A stretch of 32,017 nt of DNA, taken from an uncultured Chitinophagaceae bacterium (GTDB lineage: Bacteria; Bacteroidota; Bacteroidia; Chitinophagales; Chitinophagaceae). Positions within the stretch are counted from its first letter, which is position 1, and each line of letters begins with the position of its first letter. This document shows positions 15,523 through 25,668 of this stretch, one piece after another. The stretch spans positions 1 through 32,017 of the forward strand of contig CAIQDX010000135.1 in the NCBI GenBank assembly GCA_903870685.1, given 5' to 3'. A model generated the notes under the pieces. It saw only the letters and a list, made by a program, of their open reading frames with translations. It was not told the DNA's origin and did no database searches. The position numbers and the translations under genes were made by a program.

Positions 15523-17052
15523 ATGTCGCTACCTAAAGAGCCACGGCAGAAAATGATTAACCTGATGTATCTGGTGCTAACAGCAATGTTGGCATTGAAT
15601 GTGTCATCAGAAATTCTTAATGCTTTTAAAACGGTTAATAACAGTTTAAATAATGCTAATAGAATTATTGAGGATAAAAATCAATCTATATTCAAGTCGT
15701 TTGAGAAAATGATTGATGATCCAAGAACAAGAGACAAAGCATTAATATATAAACCAGAGGCCGATAGAGTAAGACAAATGTCGGATGAAGCTTATAATTA
15801 CATAGATGCATTAAAAACTGAATTAAAAAAAGAAGTAGGATCGCATATTGAAAATGGTGAGGAAAAATTTGCAGAAGAAAATTTAGAAGCAGCAACAAGA
15901 TTATTTGATACCAAAGGAAAAGGTCCGGAATTATTAAAGAAATTAAACGATTTTAAAACAAATATTTTAAGTGTTGATACTTCTTTAAATGCTCAATTTA
16001 AAGATGCACTTCCTTTAGATCTATCTGTTCCAAAATCAAAATCAGGTAATTCCAAAATGACTTGGACCACTGCTTATTTTCACATGACTCCAACAATTGC
16101 AGCATTAACAATTTTAAGTAAGTTTCAAAACGATGTAAAAAATAGTGAAGCAGCAATTGTTGATTATTTACATAGCAAAGTAGGAGAAGTGAAAGTGCAA
16201 TACGATCAATTTGCTGCCATTGCATCTACTGATAAATCTTATGCAATGGAAGGTGATGAAATTCATATCACTGCCGGAGTTGGTTCGTTCAGCGCAGCTG
16301 CAAAACCTAATATTACAATTAATGGTTCATATCAAAATTTACTACCTGATGGCACTGTGATGTATACCACAAAAGCTACAGGAGTTGGCGAACATTCTGT
16401 AACAGTTAATATCGAACTTACAAAACCTGATGGAACAAAATATAGTGTTCCTAAGATTGTGAAATATACAGTTGGTATGCCAAGCGGCGCTTCCATCTTC
16501 TTAGAAAAAATGAACGTCGCTTATATTGGTGTTGAAAATCCAATTACAGTTTCAGGAGGTAGTGTAGGTAGTGAAAAAGTGAATGTAACTTTTACTGGCG
16601 GAGGTGAAGTAAAAAATTTAGGTGGCGGAAAATACATAATCAATCCAACTACTACCGGTACCAATTCATTAGTTGTTGATGCCGGAGGAAAAAAATTCCC
16701 ATTCCCAATCAGATGTAAATATTTACCAGATCCTGTTGCTGTTGTTTCAGAGAAAAAAGGTGGCGCAATCGCTGCTGCAGAATTTAAAGCCCAGGGTGGT
16801 TTAATTGCAAAATTAATGGAATCAGATTTTGATGCACGTTTTCAGGTTGTCAGTTATAGATTGGGAGCTTATGGTGGATCAATTACATCACCACTTGATT
16901 ATTTAAATAATGGTCCAAGATGGACAGGGGATGCTGCAAGTTTAGTTAACAGATCATCACCTGGAACTAAAATATACTTTGATGATATTCGTGTTAAGGG
17001 ACCTGATGGACGTGAACGTCAATTACCAAGTATATTTTTTGCTTTACGATAA
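15523..17052 (+). CDS. gldM: GldM, periplasm-spanning motor protein of type IX secretion
   Basis: 509 residues, close to the usual length. The N-terminus PRQKMINLMYLVLTAMLA is the family signature and forms the one transmembrane helix that sits with GldL. The remaining ~475 residues lie in the periplasm: a helical first domain (about 35-220) and then several beta-rich domains that reach toward GldK/GldN. Repeated Gly/Thr-rich beta segments (for example VTFTGGGEVKNLGGGKY) are visible. It should transmit motor motion across the periplasm. gldN starts 15 bases after its stop, so the pair is tightly coupled. Confidence 0.96.
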   Translation: MSLPKEPRQKMINLMYLVLTAMLALNVSSEILNAFKTVNNSLNNANRIIEDKNQSIFKSFEKMIDDPRTRDKALIYKPEADRVRQMSDEAYNYIDALKTELKKEVGSHIENGEEKFAEENLEAATRLFDTKGKGPELLKKLNDFKTNILSVDTSLNAQFKDALPLDLSVPKSKSGNSKMTWTTAYFHMTPTIAALTILSKFQNDVKNSEAAIVDYLHSKVGEVKVQYDQFAAIASTDKSYAMEGDEIHITAGVGSFSAAAKPNITINGSYQNLLPDGTVMYTTKATGVGEHSVTVNIELTKPDGTKYSVPKIVKYTVGMPSGASIFLEKMNVAYIGVENPITVSGGSVGSEKVNVTFTGGGEVKNLGGGKYIINPTTTGTNSLVVDAGGKKFPFPIRCKYLPDPVAVVSEKKGGAIAAAEFKAQGGLIAKLMESDFDARFQVVSYRLGAYGGSITSPLDYLNNGPRWTGDAASLVNRSSPGTKIYFDDIRVKGPDGRERQLPSIFFALR

Positions 17053-17067
17053 TAAGACATATTTTAT

Positions 17068-18165
17068 ATGAAAAAATTAATTCTTTTATTACCGCTTATT
17101 TGTTTCATTCTTGTTGTGGAAGCACAAACAAAAAAACCTGCAGGTAAAAAACCTGTTAACAAGAATAAAACAACTGTTAACACAAAAGTTAATCAGCAAC
17201 ACATAACAGATAGTCTAAATTCTGCTGCAAGAATTTCTGATTCTTTAGCCTTGGTTCGGAAAGCTGACAGTGTTAAACTTGCTGCTTCTGTTGCAATGGC
17301 CGCTGCAGATACAACACCTAATTTAAGAATTGATTCGGTTAGTATTTCTCTTCGTAATGATAATGCAGTTGATAAATCAAGCATAAAAGTTCGTACCCCT
17401 TTAGAGTATGAATATATCAGAGAAGACAATGCCGTATATAGACAAAAAATTTGGAGAATACTCGATACAAAAGAAAAAATAAATGCGCCATTTACTTTTA
17501 ATGCTGATGATGATAATGGCAATCAAAGATTTATTTCTATTTTATTAAATGCCATTAAAAAAGGAGCAAGCAATGGCGGAGTAGATGCATTTAACCCAAT
17601 TGACGATAGGTTTACAACACCGTATACCTATAAACAAATTGCACAGGGATTAGTAGGAAAACCAAGACATCAAGAAGTAATTGATTGGGCAAAAGATCCA
17701 AATGGTAGTATCAAAAAAGATTCTGTAATTATTGATGAATTTGATCCTAATATGGTATCAAAATTTGAAATAAAAGAAGAAGTTGTTTTCAGTAAACATA
17801 CTTCAAGAATGTTCATTCGTATTTTAGGAATTGCACCAATGGTTGACGTTTATAATGATAATGCCGATGGAACAAGAACATTCAGATATTCCAAGCCCGT
17901 GTTTTGGGTTTATTATCCAGATTTAAGAGGAACATTAAGCAGACATGAAGTATTTAATCCAAAAAATTCCGGTGCTAGGATGACTTGGGAAGATTTATTT
18001 GAAAGCAGAATGTTTGGTAGTTATATCTTTAAAACAACTTTGGATAATCCTCAGAATAAAGATTTATTGCAATTGGCTAAAAACGATAATTTATTTATGC
18101 TGTTGCAGGGAGAAAAAATCAAAGAAAAAATCTTCAATTACGAACAGGATCTCTGGCAATATTAA
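17068..18165 (+). CDS. gldN: GldN, periplasmic ring component of type IX secretion
   Basis: 365 residues. The signal peptide ends near VVEAQ (about residue 20). Residues 20-95 are a low-complexity Lys/Ser/Asp-rich linker with a repeated (I/V)SDSLAL-like pattern. The folded GldN/PorN domain follows with NAVYRQKIWRILDTKEKIN, a conserved region FTTPYTYKQIAQ and the later KFEIKEEVVF and GIAPMVDVYN. It pairs with GldK in the large periplasmic ring. It is the last gene of the operon, with a strong terminator at 18193-18222. The linker makes it somewhat longer than the Flavobacterium protein. Confidence 0.95.
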   Translation: MKKLILLLPLICFILVVEAQTKKPAGKKPVNKNKTTVNTKVNQQHITDSLNSAARISDSLALVRKADSVKLAASVAMAAADTTPNLRIDSVSISLRNDNAVDKSSIKVRTPLEYEYIREDNAVYRQKIWRILDTKEKINAPFTFNADDDNGNQRFISILLNAIKKGASNGGVDAFNPIDDRFTTPYTYKQIAQGLVGKPRHQEVIDWAKDPNGSIKKDSVIIDEFDPNMVSKFEIKEEVVFSKHTSRMFIRILGIAPMVDVYNDNADGTRTFRYSKPVFWVYYPDLRGTLSRHEVFNPKNSGARMTWEDLFESRMFGSYIFKTTLDNPQNKDLLQLAKNDNLFMLLQGEKIKEKIFNYEQDLWQY

Positions 18166-18308: not shown

Positions 18309-18370
18309 GGTTTTTCATAGGATATTGGATTTTAAAAACGGGGCTGGATTTTTATCCTGGCCCTTTTTTT
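18309..18370 (+). ncRNA. Candidate small RNA between gldN and uvrC
   Basis: If the promoter-like pair at 18274-18304 is used, transcription would begin near 18309 and stop at the hairpin and T-run ending at 18370, giving an RNA of about 60 bases with no start-to-stop ORF. The start point is estimated from promoter spacing. It may instead be only the untranslated tail of uvrC on the other strand, whose terminator it shares. No known RNA family is recognised. Confidence 0.25.
18340..18370. terminator. Bidirectional terminator beside uvrC
   Basis: Stem GGGC/GCCC plus GGAT/ATCC with a small internal loop and a TTTT loop (18341-18363), followed by seven T on the plus strand and by GTTTTTA on the minus strand. 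It directly follows the uvrC stop at 18369 on the minus strand. Confidence 0.75.
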
Positions 18371-20192
18371 ATTTTATAAGCTGATTCTTATTTTCATGAA
18401 AGTAATTCCAAATCAATCTTGATTTTGCATTACCAACCACATCAATCAATTCTGCCTGCGTTTTATTCCGAATAGTATTTATCGATTTAAATTTTTTTAA
18501 TAATTGATCGGCTGTTTGTTTACCGATGCCCTTAATTTCTGCAATCTCATTTTTAAAAGTTCCTTTTGATCTTTTATTTCGATGAAAAGTAATCCCGAAA
18601 TTATGCACCTCATCACGAATTCTTCTTAGCAATTTTAAGCTATCACTATTCCATGGTAGTTTAATAGATTTAGAGTCTTGTTTAAAGAAAAGCTCTTCTT
18701 CATTTTTTGCTAGACCCACTAAGGTCATTTTGCCATTCAATTTGAGTTTATTTATACTATCCAAAGCGGCACTAAGTTGACCTTTACCGCCATCAATTAT
18801 AACGAGTTGAGGTAACGACTCTTTTTCTGCAATAAGTCTTTTATATCGCCTATAAACAACTTCCTTCATAGATGCAAAATCGTTGATGCCTGTTACAGTT
18901 TCTACATTAAAATGACGATAATCTTTTTTACTTGGCATTCCATTCTTAAAACATACCATCGCCGAAACCGGATAACTTCCCTGAAAATTTGAGTTGTCAA
19001 AACATTCAATATGAACAGGCAATTCGCTTAACTGTAAATAATTTTTTAGTTCATACAGAACATTCTTTTTTTCAGTATCATTTTGTTCTTCAAGATGCAA
19101 TATTCTTTTTCTTCTGATTTCCTCTTTGTAATAATTTACATTTTTCAATGAAAGATCAAGTAGTTTCTTTTTATCACCAGCTTTAGGAACTGTAATTATT
19201 ATTTCTGAATCAGGATATTCAATTTTAAATGGAACAATTATTTCCTGCGATAAACTATTAAATGTTTCTCTCAGATTAATGATCGCAAAACTTAATACAT
19301 CTTCGTCTGTTTCTTCCAATTTGGTTTCTAACTGAACGGTATGTGTTTGAATAATAGTGCCATTTTGAACCATCAAATAATTAACATAAGCAATATCACC
19401 TTCTTTCAAAACCGAAAACACATCAATATTATTTAATCGTGTATTTACTATTACGGATCTGGCTTTATAATTTTCTAAATGCTCGATTTTCTTTTTAATT
19501 AAATCAGCTTTTTCAAAAGCTAAATCAGCAGCATGTTCTCGCATTTCTTTTTTAAAATGTTCTATCACAGTTCCTAAATTTCCCTTCAATATTTCTTTTA
19601 TTTGTTTAATACCTTCGGCATAATCCTGCGTGGTTTGCAATGCTTCACATGGTCCTTTGCAATTGCCTAAATGATATTCCAAACAGACTTTAAATTTCTT
19701 TTTTTGAATGTTTGAATCAGAAAGATTGAGTTTGCAATTTCGTAATGGAATATATTGTTTTATAAAATCAATCAGCTCTCTCACTCTTCCCGAAGAGGTG
19801 AATGGTCCTAAATATTCTGAGCCGTCATTTAATTTTTTTCTCGTTAAAAAAATCCGCGGGAACGGTTCTTTTTTAATGACAATAAATGGATATGTTTTAT
19901 CATCCTTTAAACAGATATTGTATTTAGGCTGAAATTGTTTGATGAGTGCATTCTCCAATAAAAAAGCATCTTGTTCCGAATCAACAATTGTAAATTCGAG
20001 ATGATGAATGTGCTGAACTAATTCGTGGGTTTTATAGCTAGTAAAAGTTTTAGAAAAATAAGAGCTCACTCTTTTTCGTAAATCTTTTGCCTTGCCAACA
20101 TAAATTAATTCTTTGCTTTTAGAAAAATATTTATAGATGCCGGGCTGATGCGGAATAGTGATGGCTATATGCTGAAATTGTTCTGCTGTCAT
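18369..20192 (-). CDS. uvrC: Excinuclease ABC subunit UvrC
   Basis: 607 residues. UvrC makes both incisions during nucleotide excision repair after UvrAB finds damage. The GIY-YIG nuclease domain is at about 14-95 (GIYKYF to LIYVGKAKDLRKRV). A UVR motif follows (about 205-240, AFEKADLIKKKIEHLE). The RNase H-like C-terminal nuclease includes ECFDNSNFQGSYPVSAMV and LVIIDGGKGQLSAA. A helix-hairpin-helix pair ends the protein (IKGIGKQTADQLLKKF, then LIDVVG). Its ATG overlaps the stop of the upstream lipoprotein gene by one base (TAATG), suggesting translational coupling. Confidence 0.97.
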   Translation of the reverse strand: MTAEQFQHIAITIPHQPGIYKYFSKSKELIYVGKAKDLRKRVSSYFSKTFTSYKTHELVQHIHHLEFTIVDSEQDAFLLENALIKQFQPKYNICLKDDKTYPFIVIKKEPFPRIFLTRKKLNDGSEYLGPFTSSGRVRELIDFIKQYIPLRNCKLNLSDSNIQKKKFKVCLEYHLGNCKGPCEALQTTQDYAEGIKQIKEILKGNLGTVIEHFKKEMREHAADLAFEKADLIKKKIEHLENYKARSVIVNTRLNNIDVFSVLKEGDIAYVNYLMVQNGTIIQTHTVQLETKLEETDEDVLSFAIINLRETFNSLSQEIIVPFKIEYPDSEIIITVPKAGDKKKLLDLSLKNVNYYKEEIRRKRILHLEEQNDTEKKNVLYELKNYLQLSELPVHIECFDNSNFQGSYPVSAMVCFKNGMPSKKDYRHFNVETVTGINDFASMKEVVYRRYKRLIAEKESLPQLVIIDGGKGQLSAALDSINKLKLNGKMTLVGLAKNEEELFFKQDSKSIKLPWNSDSLKLLRRIRDEVHNFGITFHRNKRSKGTFKNEIAEIKGIGKQTADQLLKKFKSINTIRNKTQAELIDVVGNAKSRLIWNYFHENKNQLIK

Positions 20193-20779
20193 TAATACGA
20201 TTTATCATTCCAAATAACAGTGGTTTCGTCTCCCGATTCTTTTCCACTTTTATCATAAGTTGAATTAATTATTTGAAAACTTTTTCCAACTTTCCAGTTG
20301 AGTTGTTCATTCAAAAAATAATCTCCTTTATTATAATAGCTTCTGATAAAAAATCTTTTGGGTTTATTGTTCTTGTCGTCTAATAAAACAGTCACATTTT
20401 TGATATCAGAAATTGAATCGGTTGTTGAATAAGTAAGTGTGATACTTTTTGTTGTAAGATCATGAAAAACAGATTCTTTAAACAAAGGTTTTAGTTGAGC
20501 GGTTGTAATATCTTTTTTGTAAAATGAATTTGCAAGCAAAATAAAATCATCTAACGAAATAGTTGCTGAATCTCTTTTCCCGGATTTATTTTTACTGATT
20601 TTATAAATGTGATAAGGATTTTGCTGCACATCTTTTATATCTTCTTTAATAAAATCAATCACAGGAAAAAAAGTTGTAGTGTCAGTTATAGAATTATTAG
20701 TGGCAAAATTATTTTTCTTGTCTTTGCATTGTGTAAATGAAACAGCAATAAAAAGTAGAAATAAAAAATATTTGTACAT
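20192..20779 (-). CDS. Lipoprotein of unknown function, coupled to uvrC
   Basis: 195 residues. A short hydrophobic N-terminus ends in SFTQC with Cys18, a plausible lipobox, followed by KDKKNN. The mature protein is rich in Ser, Thr, Asp and Lys, with beta-like segments (STTDSISDIKNVTVLLDD, then RFFIRSYYNKGDYFLNEQ). I do not recognise a family. It ends inside the uvrC start codon and begins 57 bases after the barrel-protein gene, so it may belong to the sigma-factor operon. A TAATTTTA box (20784-20791, minus strand) just before its ATG may be an internal promoter. Confidence 0.7.
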   Translation of the reverse strand: MYKYFLFLLFIAVSFTQCKDKKNNFATNNSITDTTTFFPVIDFIKEDIKDVQQNPYHIYKISKNKSGKRDSATISLDDFILLANSFYKKDITTAQLKPLFKESVFHDLTTKSITLTYSTTDSISDIKNVTVLLDDKNNKPKRFFIRSYYNKGDYFLNEQLNWKVGKSFQIINSTYDKSGKESGDETTVIWNDKSY

Positions 20780-20836
20780 GACGTAAAATTATTCTTAAAT
20801 CCTAATAATCAGAATTTAAAAATTTGCGTAGAAAAA

Positions 20837-22288
20837 TTATTTAAAAAGTGGAGTAGCGATACCAACTTTAAAACCATAGTCTAAACGGTATTCTTTAATA
20901 GGGTAAACATCATTATAAGTTGGTAAATGCTGGTAACGTATTTGCGGACCCAAGTACCATTTTACATTTCCTGTTTTATAAGTTAAATTAAACTCGAGGC
21001 TTGAATTAAAATTCCATTTACGGAAGAAAGGCGCGCCGTTAGCATAATACTTATAATCAGTAGAGATCATATAAACATTCTTGTTCAAAGTAAATGTTGG
21101 CTGAATAGATGCACTGGCACTTAAACCCAATTTTTTGCCTTGAAGAAAATCCCATTGAAAACCAATCGGAATGGATATTTGGTATAATTTATTATCAAGC
21201 TTTGTGCTATAATATCCATTTGTTCCGGTGCTATTACCAAACATTGAAGCAATGCTGACAGAATCTAAATGATTATTTTGAACAAATGCAATAGTTGCCA
21301 TTCCATATGATGTTACTGTTGCATCAATATAGTATTGGCGAATATTAAACTGCAATCCGGTTTTAACTTTAAAATTATTAGTAAGATTATATAATATTCC
21401 TGCACCCAATTCCATTCCTAATGCAGGAGTATGGCGTACACTATTATTTACATTTGCAGTTGTGCCTTGTGTTGATACCGCCATTGCTGTTGTAGGTGCG
21501 TAAGTTAATCTTGTATTATCTTCTTCTAATTTGCGATAACTAATTGAAGGAGTAGCATAAAATTGCAATTCGAATCCTGATTGTTTTTTACTTGGCTTCT
21601 TAGTTTCAAAAGTAAATTCATTCAAATAACTATCGGTATTATTTAGATCAGATTGAATGCTTGATTTGTCTGAAAGATTTTGATACTTACTTTTCTTTGT
21701 TGTTGGTGAAGCAGAGATATCAGAAGAAATCAAATTTTGATTGGTATAATTAAATTCGTCAACCAAGAGCGAATTATCAACCAATAAACTTGTTTTTAAA
21801 ACCGGCTCAGTATGTGATGAAGAATAATTTAAAGAAGGTTTGTTTTGAGTAACAATCTCAACTGATGATGTCTTTTTATCAACCACAATCAAATCTTCAG
21901 CATCGAGATTATTATTATCATTTATTGCTGCTATTGTTTCTTTAGTATAGTTATTAAGATTGATTTGCTGTTCTAAAGTTTCAGTTTTTTCTTGAACAAT
22001 AATTTCATCAGAAGCTGCAGCTAATTTTTCAATATTATTTCCCTGTTTAAGAACTATAATATTTGTTTTGGTGATGATCGTTTTTGGAGGATAATTAAAA
22101 ACAGTTGAAACAGTTAATGTTAATATAATAGCAATAGCAATGAATGTAAGTGCAGGCCATGATGGATTGCCATGTAATTGTGTTCGAATATTTTCCCATA
22201 TATGTTCAGATGGATACATTTTATGTCCTTCCACCTCATCAATGAGATATTGTTCGAAATCGTCGTTTTGGTTAAAATTCTTTTCCAT
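20837..22288 (-). CDS. Predicted trans-envelope protein: anti-sigma-like tail, one membrane helix, C-terminal beta-barrel
   Basis: 483 residues from the ATG at 22288 (a GTG two codons earlier is possible). Residues 1-44 are polar and acidic with YPSEHIWENIRTQL, a short motif seen before the membrane helix in many Bacteroidota proteins encoded next to ECF sigma factors. A hydrophobic helix follows at about 45-64. Residues 65-238 are a Ser/Thr/Asn-rich linker. Residues 239-483 alternate beta strands with aromatic residues (FELQFYATPSISY, LGLSASASIQPTF, YRLDYGFKVGIATPLFK), resembling a small outer-membrane barrel (porin-like/PorT-like). It lies 15 bases after the sigma gene. Its role as an anti-sigma factor is inferred from position and the N-terminal motif only. 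Confidence 0.75.
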   Translation of the reverse strand: MEKNFNQNDDFEQYLIDEVEGHKMYPSEHIWENIRTQLHGNPSWPALTFIAIAIILTLTVSTVFNYPPKTIITKTNIIVLKQGNNIEKLAAASDEIIVQEKTETLEQQINLNNYTKETIAAINDNNNLDAEDLIVVDKKTSSVEIVTQNKPSLNYSSSHTEPVLKTSLLVDNSLLVDEFNYTNQNLISSDISASPTTKKSKYQNLSDKSSIQSDLNNTDSYLNEFTFETKKPSKKQSGFELQFYATPSISYRKLEEDNTRLTYAPTTAMAVSTQGTTANVNNSVRHTPALGMELGAGILYNLTNNFKVKTGLQFNIRQYYIDATVTSYGMATIAFVQNNHLDSVSIASMFGNSTGTNGYYSTKLDNKLYQISIPIGFQWDFLQGKKLGLSASASIQPTFTLNKNVYMISTDYKYYANGAPFFRKWNFNSSLEFNLTYKTGNVKWYLGPQIRYQHLPTYNDVYPIKEYRLDYGFKVGIATPLFK

Positions 22289-22303
22289 CGTCACACATTA
22301 TCG

Positions 22304-22879
22304 TTAGTTCAAAACTGCAAGCCATTTGAAATCTTCTTTTGGCCTTTCAATAATTCTCTTTTTAATTAATATCGTTTCAAGCATTGCCTTTGCTCTAGTA
22401 AATTGGCTTCGGCTTGTGCTTTCTTCTATATCTAACATTTCTCCAATTTCTTTATGACTATAGCCTTCTATCGCATATAAATTCAAAACGGTTTTATAGC
22501 CAACAGGTAATAATCTAATGCTTTCTATCACTTGTTTTCCCTGCATAATTGAAGCAATAGTTTCATCTTTCGAAGGTTGATTTTGTGCATATTGCAAATC
22601 AACATTCTCATTGAATTTTTTATACTTTTTCAAAAAATTGATGCAAGTGTGAACAATAATTCTTCTTATCCAACCTTCAAATGCGCCCTTGTTTTGAAAA
22701 GTATGTATTTGTGTAAAGATCTTTATAAATGCTTCCTGCAACATGTCTTCGGCATCTTCTCTGCTTTGCGCGAAACGATAACATACCGATAACATTTTTG
22801 GACTGTATCTGCTATATAATTCCCTTTGTGAAAAAGGATCATTATGTAAACAGCCAGCAATTATTGCTTGTTCCGTCAT
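22304..22879 (-). CDS. ECF-type RNA polymerase sigma factor
   Basis: 191 residues from the ATG at 22879; the frame extends to 22921, but a likely promoter (CAGCTTTTG near 22925) would place transcription start inside that extension. Region 2 is visible as ELYSRYSPKMLSVCYRFAQSREDAEDMLQEAFIKIF, and region 4 as LPVGYKTVLNLYAIEGYSHKEIGEMLDIEESTSRSQFTRAK, which ends in the helix-turn-helix. It should direct transcription of a specific regulon in response to an envelope or other signal. It is the first gene of an operon with the barrel protein, and is divergent from the TonB-dependent receptor. Confidence 0.93.
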   Translation of the reverse strand: MTEQAIIAGCLHNDPFSQRELYSRYSPKMLSVCYRFAQSREDAEDMLQEAFIKIFTQIHTFQNKGAFEGWIRRIIVHTCINFLKKYKKFNENVDLQYAQNQPSKDETIASIMQGKQVIESIRLLPVGYKTVLNLYAIEGYSHKEIGEMLDIEESTSRSQFTRAKAMLETILIKKRIIERPKEDFKWLAVLN

Positions 22880-23084
22880 TTTGGGGTATAATTTACCCTT
22901 TAAATATATGACATTATTCATTTACAAAAGCTGCATTAAAAAAATTCAATTAATATTTATTTTAACTAAACTTGGAATAATTTTTGCCTATTTATTTAAA
23001 AGTTAAACTATAATTGCAAATAGTGCCGGTTTTAGGCTATTGAATAACTTTCAAGAATGAACTATAAGCAACTTAGATTAGTTA

Positions 23085-23127: not shown

Positions 23128-25668
23128 ATGAAGAAATTTCTACTACTATATTCTACTTGTACTATATTTTTATTTGTATTACTGATTCCTTCATTAGTGA
23201 AGGCAAATCATTATTATAATTCAGAAACAGAAAAGTCTTCTTTATCAGGCACCATCACCGATAAAAAATCTAATCAACCTTTGGCAGGTGCTACAGTTTA
23301 TATTCCAGATTTAAAATTGAGTACAGTTTCTGATTCATCTGGTAATTATAAATTTAAAAATCTTCCAGCAGGAACTTTTTTAATTGAAATAAAATTCGAA
23401 GGGTATAAAACGATAACTCGTAACATAATTATTAAAGGAACTGTAATTCACGAAAATTTTATTTTAGAAGAAAGCGCTACCGAAATAAATGAAGTGGTTG
23501 TAACCGGTTCATCTAAAGCATCACAAATAAAAAGAAATCCTGTTCCAATTATTTCGGTAAGTCAAGAATATCTGATTACTAATTTAAGCACTAATGCTAT
23601 TGATGCGATTGCAAGAATTCCCGGTGTTCGTGCTGTAACAACAGGACCAAATGTTTCTAAACCATTCATTCGCGGATTAGGTTTCAACCGAATTCTTACT
23701 TTGTACGATGGTATCCGACAAGAAGGTCAGCAATGGGGTGATGAACATGGAATTGAAGTTGATCAATATGCCATTAACAGAGTGGAAGTGATAAAAGGCC
23801 CTGCCAGCTTGGGTTACGGCTCCGATGCATTGGCTGGTGTTGTAAATTTAATTCCAACACAACCTGCACCTGAAGGAAAAATGCTTGGTGATATTGTAAC
23901 CGATTATCAAACTAATAATAAAATGTTTGGTGGCTCGGCAATGTTAAGTGCAACTAAAAACGGATTCGAATGGTTGGCAAGAATATCTCATAAACAAGCT
24001 GCTAATTATCAAAATAAAATTGACGGAAGAGTATTTGGTACAGCGTTTAATGAAACTGATGCAAATGCTTCAATTGGAATTCATCGCAAATGGGGATTCT
24101 CGCATGTTGATTTTGTGATGTATGATGATTTGCAAGAAATTCCTGATGGCAGCAGAGACAGTGCAACATGGAAATTCACTCGACAAATTACTGAAGTCGA
24201 TACTGTTCGTCAAATAGTTTCTGATGCTGATTTAAATAGCTATAAGATCGAACACTTGCATCAGCATGTGCAGCATTACAGAATTTTTTCTGCAAATAAT
24301 TTTATCTTGAATGATGGCTCAAGATTGTTACTGAACTTAGGTTTTCAAAGAAGTATAAGAAGAGAATACAATCATCCTGAAGCTGCTTATCAAAATGTAC
24401 CCGGATTATTTTTACAACTCAATTCAGTTAATTACGATGTAAAATATTCTTTGAAAAATATTGATGAGTGGAATGTGACTTTTGGCTTGAACGGAATGTA
24501 TCAAAGCAACAATGTAACCAATGGATCGGATTTTGTTATTCCTTCCTATCATCAATTTGATGTTGGTGGGTTTGCAACTGCTAAAAAAACTTTTGGCAAA
24601 TTTGATATTGCAGGTGGTATTCGTTATGATACCCGCACATTTCATAATGATGTGTTATTTACAAAACCAAATCCGATTTCAGGATTTGCTATGCCTGTAT
24701 ATGGTGCAAATATTTTAGGTGCCTCACAAATTTTTGAAAAGGATGATGAAAAGTTTGCAGGTTTTTCAGGAAGCTTTGGCGGCACTTATAATTTTACTGA
24801 AAAGTTTTCTGTGAAAGCCAATATTTCGAGAGGTTTCAGGGCACCAAACATTTCTGAAATATCTGCTAATGGAATTCATCCGGGTACAAATATTTATCAA
24901 ATTGGTAATGATAAATTTAAACCTGAATTTAGTTTGCAGGAAGATATTGGTGCTGTTTATTCTTCCAAATTTGCTGTGATTGAATTGAACCTGTTCAATA
25001 ATTTCATTACCAATTATATTTATAATAAAAAGTTGCTCGGAACAAACGGATTGGATTCAGTTATTATTCCGGGAAATATGACTTATAAATTTGAGCAGGC
25101 TCGTGCTAATTTATATGGCGGCGAATTAAGTATTGATTTACATCCTTTCAAAGGCGTTCATTTCGAAAATAGTTTATCGGTTGTATATGCTTTAAATAAG
25201 GGCGAGTTATATCATAGTTATAATGTTTCTGATTCGGAAAAATATTTACCGCAAATTCCGCCAATGCATGGTATTTCTGAAGTAAGATTTGATTTCGATT
25301 CGAAATCTCTAAACATAAAACATGGTTTCTTGAAACTACAGATGGAATATTATGCTTCTCAAAACCGAGTTTATTTTGAGGATGGAACTGAAACCCCAAC
25401 ACCTTGTTATACTTTTTTTAATGCAGGGGTTGGCGGCAATTTTGTAAACAAACAAAACAAAACAATTTGCAGTGTTTATTTGATGACCAATAATATTTTT
25501 GATGTTACTTATTGGGATCATTTAAGCCGCCTAAAATATTTTTATGGAAACTACCAAAACCCAAGCGCCACTGATAATCCAAGAGAACATGGCATTTATG
25601 GAATGGGAAGAAATATATCTTTTAAAATTGATTTTCCATTGAGTTATAATTTGAAGAAATCATCATAG
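23128..25668 (+). CDS. TonB-dependent outer-membrane receptor
   Basis: 846 residues. Signal peptide (about 1-26). A carboxypeptidase-regulatory-like beta-sandwich covers about 38-115 (SGTITDKKSNQPLAGATVYI, GNYKFKNLPAG). The TonB-box region EVVVTG is at 122-127. The plug domain covers about 134-245 with ARIPGVRAV, PFIRGLGFNRILTLYDGIR and VEVIKGPASLGYGSDALAGVVN. The 22-strand barrel follows, ending GRNISFKIDFPLSYNL. The segment EGQQWGDEHG (199-208) is shared by receptors often annotated as metal or heme importers. A His cluster (His376, 378, 380, 383) hints at a metal-related substrate. There is no STN signalling domain and no SusD partner nearby, so transport of a small iron or metal complex is likelier than glycan uptake. 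Confidence 0.93.
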   Translation: MKKFLLLYSTCTIFLFVLLIPSLVKANHYYNSETEKSSLSGTITDKKSNQPLAGATVYIPDLKLSTVSDSSGNYKFKNLPAGTFLIEIKFEGYKTITRNIIIKGTVIHENFILEESATEINEVVVTGSSKASQIKRNPVPIISVSQEYLITNLSTNAIDAIARIPGVRAVTTGPNVSKPFIRGLGFNRILTLYDGIRQEGQQWGDEHGIEVDQYAINRVEVIKGPASLGYGSDALAGVVNLIPTQPAPEGKMLGDIVTDYQTNNKMFGGSAMLSATKNGFEWLARISHKQAANYQNKIDGRVFGTAFNETDANASIGIHRKWGFSHVDFVMYDDLQEIPDGSRDSATWKFTRQITEVDTVRQIVSDADLNSYKIEHLHQHVQHYRIFSANNFILNDGSRLLLNLGFQRSIRREYNHPEAAYQNVPGLFLQLNSVNYDVKYSLKNIDEWNVTFGLNGMYQSNNVTNGSDFVIPSYHQFDVGGFATAKKTFGKFDIAGGIRYDTRTFHNDVLFTKPNPISGFAMPVYGANILGASQIFEKDDEKFAGFSGSFGGTYNFTEKFSVKANISRGFRAPNISEISANGIHPGTNIYQIGNDKFKPEFSLQEDIGAVYSSKFAVIELNLFNNFITNYIYNKKLLGTNGLDSVIIPGNMTYKFEQARANLYGGELSIDLHPFKGVHFENSLSVVYALNKGELYHSYNVSDSEKYLPQIPPMHGISEVRFDFDSKSLNIKHGFLKLQMEYYASQNRVYFEDGTETPTPCYTFFNAGVGGNFVNKQNKTICSVYLMTNNIFDVTYWDHLSRLKYFYGNYQNPSATDNPREHGIYGMGRNISFKIDFPLSYNLKKSS

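Follow-up and report, generated by a model that had tools for sequence, protein, structure and literature searches.

A predicted anti-sigma factor that may reach from the cytoplasm to the outer membrane, encoded beside an ECF sigma gene and uvrC in Chitinophagaceae

Here, we describe a set of four minus-strand genes in DNA from an uncultured Chitinophagaceae bacterium (assembly GCA_903870685.1, contig CAIQDX010000135.1, positions 1 to 32,017; this whole stretch of 32,017 nucleotides is called the window). A sigma gene of the extracytoplasmic function (ECF) class is followed by the gene for a 483-residue protein, a lipoprotein gene and uvrC; all four were found where an earlier note, made from the sequence alone, had placed them. 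The 483-residue protein probably spans the distance between cytoplasm and outer membrane as one chain, with a predicted anti-sigma tail at one end and a beta-barrel at the other. Judged by architecture and setting, it would belong to the Dma/Reo kind of anti-sigma factor, known from published systems of Bacteroides and Phocaeicola. The architecture itself is already known; what is new is the family-wide linkage to uvrC, a promoter-like box before the sigma gene and a separate box before the lipoprotein gene. Our best overall explanation, which we regard as quite probable, combines an anti-sigma factor of the Dma/Reo kind, a protease-sensitive fuse, a self-amplifying loop and a separate lipoprotein-uvrC unit.

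A single chain with four parts

The gene for the predicted Dma-type (dual membrane-spanning) anti-sigma factor occupies 20837-22288 on the minus strand, as do all features given below, and its product divides into four parts. Residues 1-45 (22154-22288) form the predicted cytoplasmic anti-sigma tail, residues 46-65 (22094-22153) an inner-membrane helix, residues 66-238 (21575-22093) a periplasmic linker predicted to be disordered, and residues 239-483 (20840-21574) an OmpA-like outer-membrane beta-barrel. The earlier note had proposed this partition with a tail of 44 residues, and it is backed both by conservation and by an AlphaFold2 model.

Conservation was followed as entropy, in bits, along an alignment of the window protein with 23 relatives (24 sequences). 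Tail residues 9-48 are conserved (1.3-1.9 bits), linker residues 79-238 are variable and their alignment is rich in gaps (2.1-3.2 bits), and the last 245 residues, which make up the barrel, are mostly conserved (1.1-2.5 bits). Within the tail, W31 is invariant and M24, P26, S27, H39 and W44 are nearly so (20 sequences). The best 19-residue hydropathy value is 2.38 in the window protein and at least 2.0 in each of 80 sequences that include it.

Because the sigma and barrel genes share one frame, their products were folded as a single read-through chain, giving a model with a mean predicted local distance difference test score (pLDDT) of 72.8 and a predicted template modelling score (pTM) of 0.46. 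The model has two short helices in the tail (residues 10-20 and 28-39), a helix at residues 46-65, and a linker at about residues 64-233 with block pLDDT values of 32-65. From residue 239 on it forms a barrel, 22 of whose 25 ten-residue blocks reach pLDDT 87-98. Prediction of the full chain, a check that the earlier note had proposed, returned both a membrane helix and a confident barrel. Structure matches of the barrel include OprF (Z 17.2; 2.3 Å over 131 residues), PagL (Z 16.8), NspA (Z 16.0) and OmpA (Z 15.6). We take barrels of this type to be eight-stranded, and on that basis judge the present one to be eight-stranded too. At the sequence level, Pfam places OMP_b-brl_2 on residues 281-452 (31.4 bits against a cut-off of 27), with a weak Opacity match besides. 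Neither the barrel protein nor the lipoprotein reached a cut-off in NCBIfam, and a barrel profile compared with the sequences of solved structures returned only chance-level matches.

The tail accompanies an ECF sigma gene

The sigma gene (22304-22879) encodes 191 residues, is Das-like by its setting, and matches Sigma70_r2 (E 1.6e-18) and Sigma70_r4_2 (E 2.4e-11) in Pfam; its stop codon lies 15 nucleotides before the ATG of the barrel gene. When the fused model was compared with solved structures, its sigma part came nearest to CnrH bound to CnrY (4.5 Å over 148 residues), then to SigW with RsiW (5.8 Å over 153 residues), while the polymerase-bound ECF factors are far from it (18.9-25.2 Å; 9m9e, 5zx2, 6dv9 and 6jbq). 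This hints at an inhibited arrangement, in a sigma factor that was folded only in fusion with the barrel protein.

How constant is the association between tail and sigma gene? An ECF sigma gene adjoins the tail in all 23 relatives. A set of 80 named loci was also examined; where a genus or family name was available, it was mostly Sediminibacterium, Hydrotalea, Segetibacter or Chitinophagaceae. In all 73 of these close loci that have enough upstream DNA, the barrel gene follows directly on the sigma gene. Profile searches, with whole-genome searches confined to the phylum, covered two overlapping genome sets (119 from the order, 148 from the phylum) and added 20 further tail-bearing genes: seven in other families of the order, nine in other families of the class, and four that are additional copies in genomes of the family itself. 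Each of the 20 has a sigma gene immediately before it, so that the tail adjoined an ECF sigma gene throughout, the regularity on which the earlier note had wanted its proposal tested.

Of these 20 further proteins, twelve match a barrel family (E ≤0.01); no such match was obtained for three long ones or for five of 246-263 residues. The tail thus seems to be a module that can also be found without a recognised barrel. The short proteins (L198, L201, L205, L206 and L207), encoded directly downstream of a sigma gene, again have this tail and the membrane helix, and are perhaps natural swaps of the sensing part. Conversely, the sole barrel-only match without a tail (L209) has no sigma gene in its DNA examined. 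Within the family, the barrel protein is present in 68 of 97 genomes that are at least 90% complete and in 64 of 91 genera (E ≤1e-10), a recurrence that is beyond chance.

A promoter-like box before the sigma gene

The box GCAGC-N16-TGTC lies upstream of the sigma gene in the window (22910-22934). After removal of near-identical sequences, the 76 upstream regions of named loci and that of the window left 66, of which 59 contain GCAG(C/T)-N16/17-TGTC at 26-33 nucleotides before the ATG, with a 16-nucleotide spacer in 53; the frequency in shuffled sequences is 0.1%. Sediminibacterium salmoneum and Hydrotalea flava are among the species that have the box. Since the motif has the shape of an ECF promoter, it suggests autoregulation, and we regard the box as probably autoregulatory.

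The exact motif occurs at 11 places in the genome of the window. Nine of these are within open reading frames (ORFs), one is the box before the sigma gene, and the last is intergenic with no ORF close behind, so the exact box precedes no other gene of this genome, variants of the box not having been searched. Four congeneric genomes hold 47 exact-box places, and among the 30 examined in their surrounding DNA few are intergenic, standing before different genes or none. A reversed-pattern control occurs at fewer places (one in the own genome), but it contains a CpG, and for that reason the excess over it is not used here.

A small leader hairpin, GGGTA-AATTA-TACCC (22884-22898), stands just before the sigma start codon, and hairpins of the GGG..CCC type were seen between sigma box and ATG in many loci. 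When the arms were swapped among the leaders of 57 related sigma genes, own partners scored 12.6 and swapped partners 11.7 (standard deviation 0.27), and none of 1000 swaps reached the own-partner value, although the relatedness of the loci inflates this score. RNAalifold found no structure in a MAFFT alignment of the leaders because the hairpin arms are out of register there. The hairpin could be an element of translation or mRNA stability.

uvrC and the lipoprotein gene

The barrel gene is followed, after 57 nucleotides, by a lipoprotein gene of 195 codons (20192-20779) and by uvrC (18369-20192; TIGR00194, 497 bits), which encodes the nuclease subunit of nucleotide excision repair. The lipoprotein gene does run into the uvrC start, as the earlier note had read it: the stop codon and the ATG share one base (TAATG). 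That note went on to propose that an envelope-responsive unit may be coupled to DNA repair. In its full form, this would be a single envelope-stress regulon: upon activation, transcription starting at the sigma promoter would run on through the lipoprotein gene into uvrC and so tie outer-membrane damage to DNA repair. We consider such a regulon unlikely, considering the evidence on both sides.

The linkage on which it would depend is widespread. By best matches, 59 of the 68 family genomes with the barrel protein carry uvrC on the same strand and no more than 2 kb downstream of it. A further genome (G298) is linked too, in that its barrel gene is broken across two contigs and the 3' part lies 0.7 kb from uvrC, upstream of it. 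Two other unlinked calls (G321 and G294) are near contig ends, and one genome (G033) has no uvrC match; uvrC was found in 93 of the 97 family genomes. A 5.4-kb insertion separates the sigma-barrel pair from uvrC in G330, and the pair is elsewhere in G296, G312, G339 and G346. In the named loci, a set drawn by similarity to the 483-residue protein, uvrC is linked in 74 of 76, and in 73 of 75 it is separated from the barrel gene by the lipoprotein gene. Downstream sequence was available for 22 of the 23 relatives, and 21 of these have uvrC there, in one case (L052) behind an opposite ORF. With starts taken from the longest ORFs, lipoprotein gene and uvrC overlap in 25 of 73 loci and are 0-20 nucleotides apart in 36. 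The 57-nucleotide gap of the window contains no perfect terminator-like hairpin, and because the exact sigma box precedes no other gene, no targets of the sigma factor beyond its own operon are visible except the genes downstream.

Against a single regulon stands a promoter-like box that belongs to the lipoprotein gene. The sequence TAATTTTA (20784-20791), 4 nucleotides before the lipoprotein ATG, resembles the -7 box of the Bacteroidota primary sigma factor, which we take to be TAnnTTTG. Of 64 orthologous regions, all non-redundant after removal of near-identical ones, 54 have TAnnTTT(G/A) at 3-7 nucleotides from the start codon, compared with 1.9% in shuffled sequences; it occurs in none of 79 regions before the barrel gene and in 2 of 75 before uvrC. 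Some starts in the ten regions that lack it look wrongly chosen and were left uncorrected. Furthermore, 26 family genomes contain uvrC but gave no match to the barrel protein; in 14 of them the lipoprotein gene directly precedes uvrC, with no sigma gene of this type in the DNA fetched around them (up to about 4 kb; in two, at most 0.6 kb), and the lipoprotein-uvrC arrangement is kept in 4 of 5 genomes whose sigma-barrel pair is elsewhere or split off. Given its own box and its occurrence without the pair, lipoprotein-uvrC looks like a separate unit. Among 17 of the more distant lipoprotein-uvrC loci that lack the sigma pair, just 3 have the strict box before an ATG, so the box is best supported where the pair is present. 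In several other distant loci, a similar box was seen before a GTG or TTG.

Three further results bear against one regulon. Perfect terminator-like hairpins occur in 6 of 65 gaps between barrel and lipoprotein genes (0.8% in shuffled sequences), in a scan that counted perfect stems only; imperfect hairpins are visible by eye in more loci and were not counted. The linkage to uvrC is partly general synteny, because gldN, which is convergent to uvrC, also stays adjacent to it in 50 of 61 loci. Outside the family, linkage was found in none of 14 tail-bearing genomes with a uvrC match, some of which carry the short tail proteins. Coupling to DNA repair is thus weakened by the lipoprotein box and by the existence of lipoprotein-uvrC without the pair, while read-through from the sigma operon into lipoprotein-uvrC is possible in the window. 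No link between uvrC and this type of sigma factor was found in the open-licence literature.

What might the lipoprotein do? Its lipobox cysteine, Cys18, is invariant in 50 aligned sequences, and its own model is confident (pLDDT 90.4), with a predicted fold that is perhaps LolA/lipocalin-like. The window lipoprotein has no Pfam match at E ≤0.1, only chance-level ones. Its structure matches are mixed, with Z below 8: Ups1 (6.5), the Bacteroides LolA-like 4mxt (6.4), LolA3 (5.5) and RseB (5.4). START- and lipocalin-like structures score as well as LolA-like ones, and the sole Foldseek match below 0.001 is a phycobiliprotein lyase. LolA and RseB are thus among the best fold matches, but at Z 6.4-5.4, below the level that carries weight; that the protein handles lipid or lipoproteins is a guess.

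Some other arrangements were seen around uvrC. In L037, L058 and L059 the lipoprotein family gene was not found, and uvrC starts 94-169 nucleotides after the barrel gene. In L234 (2925-7515), what by eye is a SusC/SusD-like gene pair is inserted between the barrel gene and lipoprotein-uvrC. In the window, two genes at 15523-18165, which we take to be gldM- and gldN-like, converge on uvrC.

How might the signal be passed?

In the explanation that we favour, the 45-residue cytoplasmic tail, with its two short helices, would hold the sigma factor. One helix would cross the inner membrane, about 170 disordered residues would cross the periplasm, and the barrel would sit in the outer membrane, where, once assembled, it would hold the chain in a silent state. 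If the outer membrane were damaged or the barrel failed to assemble, linker or barrel would be exposed to periplasmic proteolysis, the tail would be lost and the sigma factor set free. The free sigma factor would then transcribe its own operon from GCAGC-N16-TGTC, amplifying its own supply and at the same time replenishing the anti-sigma factor. Lipoprotein gene and uvrC would be a second unit with a housekeeping promoter, probably receiving at most some extra read-through.

The earlier note had suggested instead that the one chain could sense the outer membrane directly, with no protease involved; signalling along it would then be mechanical or conformational. Both ends of the chain are indeed conserved, as such signalling would lead one to expect, but the linker between them is poorly conserved, aligns with many gaps and is predicted to be disordered, and its roughly 170 residues would leave slack across the periplasm. 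A linker of this length would hardly transmit a conformational change and would be a natural target for cleavage, which leaves signalling without a protease unsupported and, in our estimate, quite unlikely. A linker so extended and slack would seem unable to relay a pull or a change of shape, and for that reason we think it most likely a protease-sensitive fuse.

A bolder extension would have the sigma factor's own promoter as its sole strong one, such that outer-membrane damage would lead to self-amplification and to read-through into a lipoprotein-handling protein and UvrC. We think this distinctly doubtful; if true, it would make the locus a dedicated switch that answers outer-membrane damage with DNA repair and that genera across the Chitinophagaceae have retained.

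Several observations weigh against the explanation that we favour. The tail blocks of the model reach only pLDDT 48-77, its pTM is 0.46 and it carries no contact information, so that contact between tail and sigma factor is something we infer. In addition to the complexes named above, the sigma part differs by 9-14 Å from the anti-sigma-bound AlgU, sigmaE, SigK, BldN and sigma-28. Two barrel blocks, at residues 259-278, vary as much as the linker does (2.8-3.1 bits). The sigma box is missing from 7 of the 66 regions, five of them from one clade and two from the divergent loci L104 and L110, and the sigma factor of the box-less clade has hardly changed in regions 2 and 4. Where sigma-barrel pairs lie away from uvrC, the box is kept in two of four and absent in the other two. 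Loci of the box-less clade (L112, L115, L116, L119, L123, L124 and L125) have in common another AT-rich sequence upstream of the sigma gene, and L246, a box-less pair away from uvrC, appears to be the same as L104. Finally, the helix has no positive-inside bias: comparison of lysine and arginine in the ten residues before and after it, in 80 sequences, gave more before in 30, equal numbers in 20 and fewer before in 30, and the window protein itself has none before and two after.

This lack of charge bias would fit a quite different reading, in which the hydrophobic segment is a cleaved signal sequence, the mature protein consists of a barrel and a disordered tail, and the sigma gene is an incidental neighbour. 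The n-region of a signal peptide is far shorter than 45 residues, and the 45 conserved residues before the helix far exceed it; moreover, the tail occurs with a sigma gene in all 20 further cases, including the five short proteins without a recognised barrel, and we consider a cleaved signal highly improbable. Even less credible is FecI/FecR-type signalling, with a divergent gene upstream of the sigma gene (23128-25668, TonB-dependent-receptor-like by eye) as sensor and the 483-residue protein as an ordinary porin: five of the 23 relatives, including three congeners, have a similar divergent gene, but upstream neighbours are otherwise variable, the conserved tail travels with the sigma gene, and at E ≤1 in Pfam the 483-residue protein has no FecR match or FecR periplasmic domain (only OMP_b-brl_2 and the weak Opacity match).

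Relation to known systems

CnrY, which we take to be short, free of a barrel and to signal through a separate sensor, has a cytosolic anti-sigma segment, as is predicted for the present protein, and the sigma part of our model superposes on its partner CnrH (PDB 4cxf).

The published systems that match in architecture, in the passages available from the respective papers, are the Dma/Das systems of Bacteroides thetaiotaomicron and the EcfO/Reo systems of Bacteroides fragilis and Phocaeicola vulgatus. Dma proteins consist of an anti-sigma domain, one transmembrane helix, a disordered tether and a C-terminal barrel, are encoded beside ECF21 sigma genes, and are described as solely Bacteroidota; the phenotype of a dma2 deletion requires das2 (PMC13088901). 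In P. vulgatus, impairment of an anti-sigma factor with a predicted outer-membrane barrel lets the sigma factor act, and its regulon is induced by an antibacterial toxin (PMC9308784). The available passages thus report, for Bacteroides and Phocaeicola, that loss of such proteins activates the adjacent sigma factor (PMC13088901, PMC9308784). They lend good support, for the class, to the proposal of the earlier note that one chain from the cytoplasm to the outer membrane controls a neighbouring sigma factor. The further statement of that note, that no mechanism had been worked out, stands in part: sigma/anti-sigma genetics have been published, while the step of release is not described in these passages (PMC13088901, PMC9308784, PMC13114119).

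Little studied so far, and described from gut Bacteroidales, the class of anti-sigma factors anchored in the outer membrane is extended here to a large family whose genomes are mostly environmental. The findings yield a conserved tail and a concrete predicted promoter, GCAGC-N16-TGTC, and split the sigma-barrel pair from the lipoprotein-uvrC unit. Moreover, the family-wide set, with its short tails, variable linkers and shorter relatives that lack a recognised barrel, makes reporting from the outer membrane by one chain directly testable.

The present system resembles Dma1/Das1 and Dma2/Das2 in the order of its parts, in the adjacency of the sigma gene and, as for dma2, in having genes downstream. 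In contrast to dma2, which in the available text is followed by genes for DUF4943 and DUF4858 proteins (PMC13088901), the genes downstream here are a lipoprotein gene and uvrC, and the host is a Chitinophagaceae-like genome rather than B. thetaiotaomicron. With EcfO/Reo it has in common an anti-sigma factor predicted to span the periplasm and to end in an outer-membrane barrel, proposed in the passages at hand to be a sensor of outer-membrane stress; specific to EcfO/Reo are the nigD genes in the regulon and the longer O-antigen that follows impairment (PMC9308784, PMC13114119).

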